A model generated the notes under the pieces. That model did not search any database. It worked only from the letters and a program-made list of their open reading frames with translations, and was not told the origin of the DNA. A stretch of 64,000 nt of DNA from assembly GCA_018262795.1 (NCBI GenBank), contig JADFDM010000009.1, positions 124,001-188,000 of the forward strand, in the 5' to 3' direction. The position numbers and the translations under genes were made by a program. Positions 25,976 to 30,685 of the stretch are shown piece by piece. Every line of letters starts with the position of its first letter. Positions within the stretch are counted from its first letter, which is position 1. This DNA comes from Sphingobacteriales bacterium (GTDB lineage: Bacteria; Bacteroidota; Bacteroidia; Chitinophagales; LD1).

Positions 25976-26623
25976 ATGGATTTTATAAAATTTGCTCTCG
26001 ACCTCTTTCTGCATCTCGACAAGCATTTGGCGGAGATTCTGACCAATTACGGAACCCTTACCTACGTGATCCTGTTCCTCATCATCTTTGTAGAAACCGG
26101 CTTGGTATTTATGCCGCTGCTGCCCGGTGATTCCCTGCTGTTTGCTGCCGGAGCCTTGGCGGCCGCCACCGGCAAGTTAGACATGGCCATCTTGGTTCCC
26201 TTGCTCATTGTAGCCGCTTTGCTGGGCGACAATGTGAATTATTTTGTCGGAAAATTTCTGAGCAAGCAAATAAAATCAAGGGAGCGCATTCTCTTTTTCA
26301 AACGAGAGTATTTGACGCAAACCGAAGCCTTCTATGCAAAGCATGGTGGCAAAACGGTGATCATGGCGCGCTTTATCCCTATCGTGCGCACTATTGCCCC
26401 CTTTGTGGCTGGTGCCGGCAGCATGGAATATCCGCGTTACATCGTTTTCTGTATTGCAGGGGCGGTGCTGTGGGTAGCGGGAGTCAGCTTTGTTGGCTAC
26501 CAGTTTGGCAACATTCAAATCGTGAAAGAAAATTTTGAGTTAGTGATTCTCGGAATTATCTTTATTTCCGTGCTTCCCATCCTTTGGCAAATGATGAAAG
26601 CTCGCTTAGCCCCCGCCAAGTAA
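25976..26623 (+). CDS. DedA-family inner-membrane protein
   Basis: A 215-residue SNARE-associated/DedA membrane protein, a family linked to lipid flipping and envelope homeostasis. It has the LPGDSLLFAAGALAA segment, an ARFIPIVRTIAPFVAGAGSM segment close to the conserved R-F-x-P-x-x-R-T motif, and about five hydrophobic segments. Its TAA overlaps the aroE ATG by one base (TAATG), so the two are translationally coupled. Confidence 0.93.
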   Translation: MDFIKFALDLFLHLDKHLAEILTNYGTLTYVILFLIIFVETGLVFMPLLPGDSLLFAAGALAAATGKLDMAILVPLLIVAALLGDNVNYFVGKFLSKQIKSRERILFFKREYLTQTEAFYAKHGGKTVIMARFIPIVRTIAPFVAGAGSMEYPRYIVFCIAGAVLWVAGVSFVGYQFGNIQIVKENFELVILGIIFISVLPILWQMMKARLAPAK

Positions 26624-27351
26624 TGCGCAGATTTGGGCTTATAGGGTTTCCGCTCACGCATTCCTTTTCAAAAAAATATTTTGAAGAGAAGTTTACACGG
26701 GAAGAAATTGCCGATGCCCGGTATGAACTTTATCCGCTCCACCAGCCCGATGAGTTGCTTGCTTTGCTGACCACCTATCCCGATTTGGTCGGTTTGAATG
26801 TGACTATTCCTTACAAACAATCGGTTATTTCGCTGTTGAATCATTTGGAAAGCGAGGCGCGAGAGATAGGTGCGGTTAATTGTATCAAAGTAACCAAGGA
26901 GGGGCTGATAGGCTACAACACCGATGCCTATGGCTTTGAAAACTCATTGAATCGTTTTCTGACCACCACTCCTGCCCAAGCATTTATTCTGGGAACCGGT
27001 GGCTCTTCAAAAGCAGTGGCTTACGGGCTGCAAAAATTGGGAATAGCTGCGCGGATGGTTTCCAGGGATCCGACTCCACCTCATCTTGCTTATAGTGAGA
27101 TAGAAAAGCATTTAAAAAGCAGCAACCTGTTCATCAACACTACTCCTTTGGGCATGTTTCCGCAAATTGATTTTGCTCCGCAAATACCGTATCACTTGCT
27201 CACCGATAATGACTACCTCTTCGACCTCGTTTACAATCCCGATGAAACGCTGTTTTTGAAAAAGGGTAAACAAGCAGGCGCTTCGGTAAGGAATGGTTGG
27301 GAGATGCTGAAACTGCAAGCCGAGAAAAGTTGGGAGATATGGAATTCGTGA
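26623..27351 (+). CDS. aroE: Shikimate dehydrogenase
   Basis: Reduces 3-dehydroshikimate to shikimate with NADPH in aromatic amino-acid synthesis. The 242-residue protein has GFPLTHSFSKKYFEEKF, NVTIPYKQSVI with the catalytic Lys, and NTDAYGFENSL with the catalytic Asp. The NADP motif is ILGTGGSSKAVAYGL. The open frame starts 39 bp earlier inside dedA, but MRRFGLIGFP is the family start. At 242 residues it is a compact form. Confidence 0.95.
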   Translation: MRRFGLIGFPLTHSFSKKYFEEKFTREEIADARYELYPLHQPDELLALLTTYPDLVGLNVTIPYKQSVISLLNHLESEAREIGAVNCIKVTKEGLIGYNTDAYGFENSLNRFLTTTPAQAFILGTGGSSKAVAYGLQKLGIAARMVSRDPTPPHLAYSEIEKHLKSSNLFINTTPLGMFPQIDFAPQIPYHLLTDNDYLFDLVYNPDETLFLKKGKQAGASVRNGWEMLKLQAEKSWEIWNS

Positions 27352-27379
27352 ATTCTTTTCTTTAGCAGCAGGGGTTCAT

Positions 27380-27408
27380 ACCTTATAGGTTTCTAAAACC
27401 TATAAGGT
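27380..27408. repeat. Perfect 13-bp inverted repeat after aroE (REP-like or terminator)
   Basis: ACCTTATAGGTTT (27380-27392) and AAACCTATAAGGT (27396-27408) with a three-base loop CTA form a perfect stem 29 bp after the aroE stop. There is no T-run right after it. I recall similar ACCTATAAGGT palindromes as dispersed in Bacteroidota genomes, so it may be a REP-like element that also stops transcription. Confidence 0.6.
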
Positions 27409-27476
27409 CTTGTCGGAAATTTCGATTTCGATTCGTGAACCGCTAACCAATTAAAAATTTAATGGCCATGCTATCT

Positions 27477-27560
27477 GTTGCATCGGATTGCTTCCAACCA
27501 GTCGGTTATGTATAGTACGCTGCAATAGATGGCTCCCAACCACTCGGTTGAGTATAATCC
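27477..27560. repeat. Two diverged 42-bp repeat units (upstream outlier)
   Basis: Units 27477-27518 and 27519-27560 share spacing and the words GTTGCATCGGATTGC and TAGTACGCTGCAA with the main array at 27855-28274. They differ in their second half (CCAACCAGTCGGTT and CCAACCACTCGGTT). They are followed by the same flank sequence as the main array. Confidence 0.75.
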
Positions 27561-27632
27561 GCTGCAACGTATTCATACAAACCATTATTTCCGGCCATTT
27601 CCTTCACAAAACACCTGATAAGTGCTGAAATT
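27561..27632. repeat. Flank repeat, copy 1
   Basis: About 72 bp that match 28275-28345. The best shared part is TATTTCCGGCCATTTCCTTC, then AAAACA..TGATAAG and GCTGAAATT. It follows the last 42-bp unit in both places, so array plus flank was duplicated as a module. The distance between the copies is 714 bp, 17 times 42. Confidence 0.75.
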
Positions 27633-27741
27633 GTAGTGCCGAGCGATGTGCTAAGCGCTTTGTTGTGGGCAAATGTGATACCCATCGTTAGTTTTAGCCA
27701 AGGTGGGTGGAACGATAAACGGTAATTAAAGGCGGATGCTT

Positions 27742-27809
27742 TGTTGTTAAAGAGAACACGCAACAGTAGCTTCGGTCATCATTTTGTTGTTGGTGATAAC
27801 ACACAACAA
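27742..27809. repeat. Two related TGTTG...CAACA inverted repeats
   Basis: TGTTG (27742-27746)/CAACA (27761-27765) and TTGTTG (27784-27789)/CAACAA (27804-27809) enclose similar purine-rich loops and lie 42 bp apart. A third, related copy lies at 28348-28370 after the main array. Confidence 0.5.
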
Positions 27810-27854
27810 CGGCTTCCGCTATCGTCCCTTCAAAATTTATGCGGGATGGTGCTT

Positions 27855-28274
27855 ATTGTATCGGATTACAGCAAATAATTCTTCGCGAAGTAGTACGTTG
27901 CATCGGATTGCACCAAATATTTATTCTTGGTGCAGTACGTTGTATCGGATTGTAGTAAATATTCATTCCCGGTGCAGTACGCTGCATCGGATTGCAGTAA
28001 ATATTTATTCTGGGTGTAGTACGCTGCATCGGATTGCAGTAAATATTTATTCTGGGTGTAGTACGCTGCATCGGATTGCAGTAAATATTTATTCTGGGTG
28101 TAGTACGCTGCATCGGATTGCAGTAAATATTTATTCTGGGTGTAGTACGCTGCATCGGATTGCAGTAAATATTTATTCTGGGTGTAGTACGCTGCAACAG
28201 ATTGCTGTAAATATTTATTTTCGGTGTAGTACGCTGCAACAGATTACAACAAATATCTTTTTGTGGAGAAGTGC
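27855..28274. repeat. Tandem array of ten 42-bp units
   Basis: Ten units, each exactly 42 bp, start at 27855 and every 42 bases after it. The five units 27981-28190 are identical; the outer units diverge step by step. Each carries CTGCATCGGATTGCAG (an inverted repeat CTGCA/TGCAG around TCGGAT in the core units) and AAATATTTATT. Because 42 is a multiple of 3, both strands stay open (repeating 14-residue frames), but substitutions between units fall freely at all codon positions, which argues against a protein. There are no unique spacers, so it is not a CRISPR array. Confidence 0.9.
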
Positions 28275-28370
28275 GCTACAACAACATCATATAAAGCACT
28301 ATTTCCGGCCATTTCCTTCATAAAACAGATGATAAGGCTGAAATTTATTGTTGAAGGTAACACACAACAA
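28275..28370. repeat. Flank repeat, copy 2, with TTGTTG/CAACAA hairpin
   Basis: 28275-28345 matches the flank at 27561-27632. It is followed by TTGTTG (28348-28353)/CAACAA (28365-28370), a third copy of the inverted repeat at 27742-27809. It closes the repeat region. Confidence 0.7.
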
Positions 28371-28377
28371 CTCGGCA

Positions 28378-28490
28378 AGTCATTTTCTTACTCTCTCATT
28401 TCCTCATTCCCCAATTTTCTCATTCTCTTACTCCCCAATTTCCCCATTTCTTAATTTTCTAATTTCCTTATTCCTTCCCAAGTTCTAATC
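28378..28490. repeat. Pyrimidine-rich low-complexity tract before the PIF1-like helicase gene
   Basis: About 110 bases made of loose repeats of CTCATTTTCTTACTC- and CCCAATTTC-like words and nearly free of G. It is of a different word family from the tracts at 251, 20553 and 21120. No gene is visible in it. Confidence 0.5.
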
Positions 28491-28513: not shown

Positions 28514-30685
28514 ATGAACAACCGCGAATTTGAAATAGCCGAACAGTTTGCGCTGCAAACCAATCGCCATTTTTTCCTGACGGGAAAAGCGGGAACGGGG
28601 AAAACCACCCTGCTGAAAACCATTGCTGAAAAGACCTCGAAAAATTATGTGGTGGTGGCTCCTACCGGAGTGGCCGCTATCAATGCCGGAGGGGTGACAC
28701 TGCACTCGATGTTCAGTTTACCCCTCACCGCTTTTGTGCCTACCAACGATTTTGCCGACCCCAACTTGGCCAACAACCGCAGAAGCTTAGCCGAACACCT
28801 CCGCTACCGAAAGGATAAACTGCGCGTGATTCAAGAAATGGAGTTGCTGATTATAGATGAGGTGAGTATGGTGCGTTGCGATATTCTGGATGCGGTGGAC
28901 TTTGCCATGCGCACCGTGCGTAAAAACCACGCACCATTTGGAGGGGTGCAGGTGATGCTGATTGGCGACATGCACCAGTTGCCCCCGGTGGTCAAAGACA
29001 ATGAATGGCAAGTGCTGCGGAAGTATTACCCCGGTCCCTATTTCTTTCATTCCTTAGTGTGGGCCGAACTGAATGCTTTGAATATTGAACTGCGGAAAAT
29101 ATACCGGCAGAGCGATGAAAAGTTTCTGTCGCTGCTCAACAATCTTCGCCATCAGCAAATGGAGGTGGAGGATTATGAATTGTTGGAAAAGCGCTTTCTG
29201 CCGAAATTTGAACCAACCGAAGACGGCTATATTTTGTTGAGCACTCACAACCGCACTGCCGACTCGGTGAATGAGCAAGAACTAAAAAAAATTGACGGTC
29301 GCTCGCATTTATTCGAGGCGATTACCACAGGCGATTTTCCTGAAAACATGTACCCCTGCGACCTGGTGCTGCACCTGAAAGAGGGGGCACAGGTCATGTT
29401 CATCCGCAACGATTCTATGGATGGAAAATACTTTAACGGCAAGTTGGCTCGCGTAAAAAAATTGGAAGGAAATAAAATCATCGTCACCTTTTCGGATAGC
29501 GGGCAAGATTATGAACTGCATCGCGAAACCTGGGAGAACATTAACTATAAGGTGGTAGATGGCTCTGAGAAAATTGAGAAGAATGAGTTGGGTACTTTCA
29601 GTCAGTATCCGCTGCGCTTGGCTTGGGCCATCACCATTCACAAAAGTCAGGGGCTCACTTTCGACAAAGTGATTATTGATGCCGGGCAATCTTTTGCAGC
29701 CGGACAAGTATATGTGGCGCTCAGTCGCTGCCGCACTCTCGAAGGCATTGTGTTGCATTCGCAAATTACTCCGCGTTCGCTGCACAGCGATCCACGCATC
29801 GTTGATTTCTCGGCATCGCATCACTCTACCAACGAGTTAGAAAGCACCTTGGCAGGAGCCAAAGCGGAATATGCCCACTATTTATTGAAACGCCTTTTCA
29901 CTTTCACCAAACTAACGGAGCGCCTGAGTGAATGGCGCGAGATGATAGTGGTGAAAGACATCCCCGAAAAAGAAAAAGCACTGGAGTTGCACAGCACTAT
30001 TTGGAACAGGGTAGATCAACTGAATGGCACGGCTCGCAAATTTCAGCAGCAGTTGGATCGGCTGCTTCATGACTACGATAAAGACGCGGAGCAAATTCAT
30101 GTTCTCCGCGAACGCTGCGAAAAAGCGATTGAATATTTTGCGGAATATATTTTCACGCAACTCATCACTCTCCTGCACGAACACATTATTTCACTCGCCT
30201 TCAAAGCCAAAATGAAAATCTATGTGAGGCAAGTGCAACTACTCGAAGAAAACTTCTGGAACAAAATCAACCATTTGTATCATGCTTATTTCCTCGATGA
30301 AAAATTGTATCGCGGTGAAATGAAATACACCAAAGATTTATTAAAGACGGTGGCCAGTTCCATTACCTCCGGCAAAAAGGAGAAAGGCGGTACCTATCGC
30401 GATACCTTGGAACTATATCGGCAAGAAAAATCAATCGAGGAGATTGCGGAGATACGCGGTCTCGCCCCCTCTACCATCAAAGGGCACTTTGCCAAATGGA
30501 TTTTGAGTGGAGAAATAGATGTGTACCGAGTGTTGCCGGCTGAAATTATCAACCCTATTAAAGCCTTTTTGACCGATAGCGAAGAGAAGAGTGTGACAGC
30601 AGTACTGCATCATTTCGGAGATAAATTTGACGGAGGCGATGTGAGGATGGTAGTGAATGAAATATTGCGAGAGAGGATAAGTTAA
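28514..30685 (+). CDS. PIF1-like AAA ATPase/DNA helicase with C-terminal HTH domain
   Basis: A 723-residue 5'-3' type superfamily 1B helicase. Walker A is GKAGTGKTTLL (about residues 24-34), Walker B is LLIIDEVSMV, and GDMHQLPPV and AITIHKSQGLTFDKV are the other core motifs. YVALSRCRTLEGI marks the end of the core. The C-terminal part contains a helical region and a helix-turn-helix (KSIEEIAEIRGLAPSTIKGHFAKWI), the HTH_40-type domain also seen in RecQ-like proteins. It probably acts in DNA replication or repair. A near -7 box (TATCTTTA, 28499-28506) lies seven bases before the ATG. Confidence 0.9.
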   Translation: MNNREFEIAEQFALQTNRHFFLTGKAGTGKTTLLKTIAEKTSKNYVVVAPTGVAAINAGGVTLHSMFSLPLTAFVPTNDFADPNLANNRRSLAEHLRYRKDKLRVIQEMELLIIDEVSMVRCDILDAVDFAMRTVRKNHAPFGGVQVMLIGDMHQLPPVVKDNEWQVLRKYYPGPYFFHSLVWAELNALNIELRKIYRQSDEKFLSLLNNLRHQQMEVEDYELLEKRFLPKFEPTEDGYILLSTHNRTADSVNEQELKKIDGRSHLFEAITTGDFPENMYPCDLVLHLKEGAQVMFIRNDSMDGKYFNGKLARVKKLEGNKIIVTFSDSGQDYELHRETWENINYKVVDGSEKIEKNELGTFSQYPLRLAWAITIHKSQGLTFDKVIIDAGQSFAAGQVYVALSRCRTLEGIVLHSQITPRSLHSDPRIVDFSASHHSTNELESTLAGAKAEYAHYLLKRLFTFTKLTERLSEWREMIVVKDIPEKEKALELHSTIWNRVDQLNGTARKFQQQLDRLLHDYDKDAEQIHVLRERCEKAIEYFAEYIFTQLITLLHEHIISLAFKAKMKIYVRQVQLLEENFWNKINHLYHAYFLDEKLYRGEMKYTKDLLKTVASSITSGKKEKGGTYRDTLELYRQEKSIEEIAEIRGLAPSTIKGHFAKWILSGEIDVYRVLPAEIINPIKAFLTDSEEKSVTAVLHHFGDKFDGGDVRMVVNEILRERIS

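Follow-up and report, generated by a model that had tools for sequence, protein, structure and literature searches.

A 42-bp intergenic minisatellite in a Sphingobacteriales genome and a genus-wide class of arrays with periods in multiples of 21 bp

Intergenic tandem arrays with periods that are nearly always multiples of 21 bp (21n), and whose members mostly share no common sequence, exist as a class in the genus of the bacterium studied here, and this class is well supported. One of its members lies between aroE and a helicase gene in the window (the whole 64,000-nucleotide stretch of DNA that was analysed), and we tentatively favour the view that it is a helically phased intergenic minisatellite, a putative platform for protein binding along one face of the DNA. 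The shared 21-bp periods suggest that a single DNA face is used, possibly by a bound protein. The 21n period common to the arrays of the genus was missed by a preliminary description of the window, because it is visible only with other DNA.

The window array and its relative on a second contig

Two 42-bp arrays were detected by TRF, one at 27860-28256 (9.5 copies, 90% match, 0% indels) and one, of 2.0 copies, at 27486-27567. Together with unit phasing, this bears out the count of ten 42-bp units, five of them identical, plus two diverged units, with which the preliminary description had started (Table 1). The identical units are units 4-8 of the main array (27981-28190) and identity drops outward from them, so that the earlier picture of identity highest in the middle, with growth there, also stands. 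Units abut without spacers (TRF, unit phasing), as expected of something that had been described as not CRISPR, and the head-to-tail copies of a unit within 10-100 bp make the array a minisatellite (TRF). The core TGCATCGGATTGCA occurred 10 times in the window at ≤2 mismatches, compared with 0.63 occurrences expected, and 0/100 shuffles reached 10.

The small block lies 378 bp (9 × 42) upstream of the main array, and the unit types of the two share a left-to-right order. Both blocks are followed by a duplicated flank, as had been described; its copies, at 27560-27622 and 28274-28336, lie 714 bp apart and share 83% identity over 63 nt. The distances of 294 and 714 bp between blocks are indeed multiples of 42, but they constitute one coincidence and not the two that had been implied, since adding the 420-bp array to 294 gives 714; a single spacing that is a multiple of 42 arises by chance about 1 time in 42. 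The possibility that the 42-bp unit is a 21-bp dimer was rejected, just 8/42 positions matching at lag 21. The DNA at 28380-28480, lying between the array and the start of the helicase gene, is pyrimidine-rich and contains diverged 24/40-bp repeats (TCATTTCCTCATTCCCCAATTTTC).

Table 1. Features in and around the array, in window coordinates.
Feature	Coordinates	Strand	Description	Evidence
aroE (shikimate dehydrogenase), upstream neighbour	26584..27351	+	start codon uncertain	Pfam PF08501
Palindrome after aroE	27378..27410	.	ACCTTATAGGTTT-CTAA-AACCTATAAGGT; general form CCTTATAGGTTT(3-8)AAACCTATAAGG	
Small block	27477..27560	+	two diverged 42-bp units, same register as main array	
Tail (right flank) of small block	27561..27632	+	GCTGCAACGTATTCATACAAACCATTATTTCCGGCCATTTCC...	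repeat search
R2 hairpin, diverged copy	27741..27775	-		covariance model
R2 hairpin, best copy	27784..27818	-	AGCCGTTGTTG-T-GTG-TTAT-CAC-CAACAAC	family covariation
Main array	27855..28274	+	ten 42-bp units, consensus GCTGCATCGGATTGCAGTAAATATTTATTCTGGGTGTAGTAC, five central units identical	TRF and genome search
Tail (right flank) of main array	28275..28345	+	83% identity with small-block tail over 63 nt	
R2 hairpin, diverged copy	28345..28379	-	directly after main array and tail	
PIF1-like helicase with C-terminal HTH_40, downstream neighbour	28514..30685	+		Pfam PF05970, HTH_40

The bacterium's own genome (G000; 3.48 Mb, 19 contigs) carries the window array on contig C19 and a relative on contig C4. 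This second array of the 42-bp unit (C4:58936-59220, minus strand) has the same period and is flanked by an ERG4/ERG24-type reductase gene and an RmlD-type gene; genome search placed the unit at these two loci and found no further copy. The C19 and C4 arrays aligned over 418 bp with 72.5% identity and no indel, and in both of them ATCGGAT-type units on the left give way to AACGTAT-type units on the right. Agreement in the order of unit types was reached by 0/5000 shuffles (0.0008 with the edges left out), and the two are therefore copies of one polar array rather than independent expansions. The tail is common to the two C19 blocks, and in C4 the match to the tail unit is only weak. An exact 12-bp direct repeat, CCATAAAGTCAG, lies on each side of the C4 array (intergenic region L018) and is possibly a target-site duplication. 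Comparison of left with right flanks, of C4 or of C19, gave no inverted matches of at least 9 bp.

The search that the preliminary description had suggested, for the core unit in its own genome and in relatives, was thus productive for the former, yielding the locus on C4, and not for the latter: the window array was not found in 17 congeners. A model of the 42-bp unit (R1), run against 199 genomes of the order for a wider family, gave only chance-level matches outside the unit's own genome, and viral and phage collections contained nothing matching it. Conserved synteny was considered and rejected, the helicase orthologues of 8 congeners having neither an adjoining aroE nor the window array, as was a fixed 21-bp TGTATCRGAT array family, found in 1/398 genomes.

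Periods in multiples of 21 bp recur across the genus

A TRF scan of 1.26 Mb (36%) of the bacterium's own genome, with intergenic regions set by ORFs and not by annotation, found that 14/22 intergenic arrays have 21n periods: 21, 42 (eight arrays), 63 (two), 84, 126 and 294 bp. At a rate of 1/21 the binomial probability of this count is about 7e-14. The related C19 and C4 arrays make up 3 of the 14, and without them the proportion is 11/19, still far above 1 in 21. Intergenic periods other than 21n occur in this genome too (34, 40, 44, 206 and 450 bp; TRF). A lag scan under a stricter coding mask gave 9 intergenic places at lag 21 and 8 at lag 42, with mostly 0-2 places at lags that are not multiples of 7; the 8 places at lag 14 came from separate heptamer repeats such as TTAATGG. 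TRF and fixed-lag scans both favour indel-free arrays, and some of the 21n arrays contain 1-6% indels (TRF).

The array units compared were unrelated in sequence, apart from the C19 blocks and C4. Pairwise profile scores, which have a floor that hides weak similarity, are read only for C19/C4/B1 and for C4 with array L161, the last pair being weakly similar (z 2.4). Arrays occur in all gene contexts and one (L171) lies between convergent genes, for which reason promoter control is not general.

Two further loci in this genome were noted. At L150 1547-2817 (C15:175.0-176.3k) there is an intergenic 294-bp (14 × 21) tandem repeat of 4.3 copies at 96%, each unit of which carries an CCTTATAGGTTT(3-8)AAACCTATAAGG palindrome and a GTCTGTG/CACAGAC hairpin, with no visible 42-bp sub-period. 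At L163 17905-18624 (C11:237.9k), a 21-bp repeat (GTGGGGAAAAACATTCTTACT) present in about 31 copies is open in four frames, one of which encodes KNILTVG heptads, and this locus may or may not be coding.

Congeners were sampled over 200 kb each in two cases, G005 having one array, of 42 bp, and G008 one array, of 105 bp (5 × 21; TRF). At other congener loci, mostly picked around hairpins or helicase genes, 7/8 distinct intergenic TRF arrays were 21n, and at the hairpin loci the lag scan returned 40 matches over six multiples of 21 compared with 5 over 110 other lags. Each congener array had its own sequence. Small samples, of 400 kb from a sister genus and 200 kb from another family, yielded no 21n intergenic TRF array, and the sister-genus lag scan was swamped by two places matching at every lag. 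Outside the genus, 21-bp arrays of the TGTATCRGAT kind (TTGTATCRGATATAA...) were found in two Chitinophagaceae MAGs (L041 5872-6030; L049, a 4389-bp contig). In L041 a TAACTTTG promoter-like box and a lipoprotein-like gene follow immediately downstream of the array end. A search of the open-access literature found no report of 21n-locked intergenic arrays, which is weak evidence of novelty.

Pooled conservation within units follows the helical repeat

B-DNA has 10.5 bp per turn, and the smallest whole-number period in phase with it is 21 bp; a tandem period that keeps phase with the helix must therefore be a multiple of 21, as the 42-bp period of the window and C4 arrays is, while coding alone would permit any multiple of 3. 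The prediction, set before the test, was that conserved columns within units recur at 10.5 bp. Pooled over 18 arrays, they did so to an extent reached in 0/500 permutations (0.002 with 3-column blocks), and the signal was present when either the bacterium's own genome (0.008) or the set of other genomes (0.018) was taken by itself. The pooled arrays gave no conservation signal at 3 bp (p about 0.8) or at 7 bp (p 0.28, 0.25), although in the other genomes alone 7 bp also reached 0.037. Neither the window array nor C4, each taken alone, had a 10.5-bp signal, the window array having 0.38 of the expected power. Intrinsically curved DNA was tried as a candidate and rejected: the mean z of the curvature predicted from wedge parameters was -0.07 over 22 arrays relative to permuted controls.

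Phased platform or biased duplication

The function of the helically phased class is something we infer, and a protein-binding array is our best guess at it. Constraint would then act on the DNA, with the binding sites of all repeats turned to one face of the helix, and one or more proteins would bind the array cooperatively in line to form a nucleoprotein patch. Slippage or unequal exchange would add copies in the middle of the array, and a unit off by one base would have its binding site turned out of line and would be lost; with off-length units lost in this way, sequence would be free to drift and length would not. A wider proposal, which we consider rather unlikely, extends this to the genus: arrays nearly free in sequence would be held in length to even helical turns, a protein would bind or polymerise along one face largely whatever the motif, and the chromosomal element would be coded by phase and not by sequence.

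It is quite possible, as the main rival to a binding platform, that these are neutral minisatellites without function, produced by slippage or recombination biased to even helical turns. Their presence in all kinds of gene context, their mostly unrelated sequences and their growth in the middle all fit such an origin, as do the failure to find the window array in congeners and the existence of periods of 34, 40, 44, 206 and 450 bp. Neutral growth does not, however, predict conservation on one face at 10.5 bp, nor that the C19 and C4 arrays should have kept register over 28% divergence. The 10.5-bp conservation thus favours a protein on one face, whereas varied gene contexts and turnover favour biased duplication.

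Dispersed hairpins and the mobile-element reading

The TTGTTG/CAACAA inverted repeats that had been described between and after the blocks are real (27740, 27783 and 28344 in the repeat search), and they match other sites in the bacterium's own genome. A covariance model made from these hairpins (R2) had 16 matches there at E ≤ 1, of which the weaker may be chance, and it also matched all 17 congeners, as many as 42 times in one of them, with many of the weaker matches again possibly chance. The copies examined were mostly intergenic, some of them forming inverted pairs, and the stem showed 15 compensated cells compared with 4.0 in shuffles. The hairpins are a separate, genus-wide family of dispersed, REP-like palindromes. 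The mobile repeat family offered in the preliminary description therefore divides in two: the 42-bp unit sits at just two genome loci, and what is dispersed through the genus is the hairpins. The genome has two IS200/IS605-type Y1 transposase genes, and R2 hairpins flank neither of them.

Could hairpin ends and internal array together form a MITE-like mobile element with a minisatellite core, in the manner of BrickBuilt? Five loci, spread over four species, have an R2 copy about 50 bp or less from the end of an array (the window, G005, G016 twice and G017), the C19 blocks have a common tail, and the direct repeats flanking the C4 array would suit an insertion. We nevertheless think this improbable. 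Terminal inverted repeats are lacking in the C4 and C19 flanks, the C4 array has no R2 hairpin and array sequence changes from locus to locus. Moreover, the association of R2 with arrays is optional, because 32/42 of the R2 copies checked had no array within 700 bp and only 10/42 had one; among arrays of the bacterium's own genome, R2 is nearby only in the window and at L191.

Other palindromes were noted. That at 27378-27410 is probably the aroE terminator; its core, CCTTATAGGTTT(3-8)AAACCTATAAGG, has 8 exact genome copies, on C5, C12, C13, C15 and C19, and is possibly a dispersed terminator or REP-like element. A further dispersed palindrome, GATGTCTGTGTCCTCACAGACATC, is found at L144 1562 and 4391, L139 2028 and L150 1606, these being weak matches to model R2. 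In the congener G005 (L132, L133 and L134), same-strand R2 pairs 570-1220 bp apart sit inside longer conserved stretches (TTTAGCCCCTGTTGGTGTTCCTG...CAACAACAGAAGC) and could be the ends of non-autonomous IS200/IS605-like elements.

Coding and RNA readings

We judge it very unlikely that the arrays are repetitive coding sequence, for peptide repeats of 14 or 7 residues, or its decayed remains. It is true that 21 and 42 are multiples of 3 and that several frames are open in the main array, and likewise in L163, L190 and L209, but L161, L172, L183, L191 and the block at 27477-27560 have no frame open throughout. Conservation lacks a 3-bp periodicity, most changes that separate C19 from C4 units are non-synonymous whichever frame is read, and no Pfam family scored above cut-off; the earlier statement that the array is not a gene is upheld, and we treat it as non-coding DNA.

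A transcribed, structured RNA with one hairpin per unit, another of the earlier suggestions, is scarcely credible: the main array folds more stably than its shuffles on the + strand (z -5.0), but any repeated sequence folds well on itself, C4 folding is ordinary on both strands (z -1.6 and +1.5), the CTGCA/TGCAG dyad, while present in core units as described, does not covary and is intact in just 67% of the cells across units, and there is no Rfam match.

Comparison with known systems

The minisatellites of bacteria are commonly regarded as neutral markers for typing, their periods being arbitrary. If the 21-bp module and the conservation of one face are both true, DNA geometry would be selected, or imposed by duplication machinery, independently of sequence. 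The functional and the mutational readings can both be tested, and the arrays provide concrete loci in several species with which to search for the putative binding protein.

The cyanobacterial STRR heptanucleotide repeats are intergenic tandem repeats with a fixed unit length, of 7 bp. Window-type arrays are similarly intergenic, tandem and fixed in unit length, and differ in lacking a 7-bp sub-period. AraC-type direct-repeat operators place half-sites on one face of the helix at a distance of about 21 bp, usually two of them and at one promoter; the arrays described here, which can reach 30 copies, are unrelated in sequence and are tied to no particular promoter context, resemble them by analogy only. 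REP/BIME palindromes are comparable to the R2 hairpins and not to the 42-bp array: R2 is likewise short, imperfect, dispersed, intergenic, partly in inverted pairs and covarying, although no link to a Y1 transposase was found for it.

The archaeal Borg elements also have many sequence-unrelated tandem arrays, genic and intergenic, in one lineage. Their repeats (PMC9879509) come close to perfect identity, are rich in A, have a length divisible by three in only 14-38% of intergenic units and, unlike those here, are not known to be locked to 21 bp. BrickBuilt, of Porphyromonas gingivalis, is a MITE, a single sequence family of 19 copies with a 23-nt minisatellite, a leader, a tail and small inverted-repeat ends (PMC4596501). 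The present arrays differ from it in their 21n period, in each having its own sequence apart from two related loci and in that no inverted-repeat ends were found; they are like it in belonging to Bacteroidota and in being intergenic, spacer-free tandem direct repeats with diverged flanks and a copy number that varies between loci.
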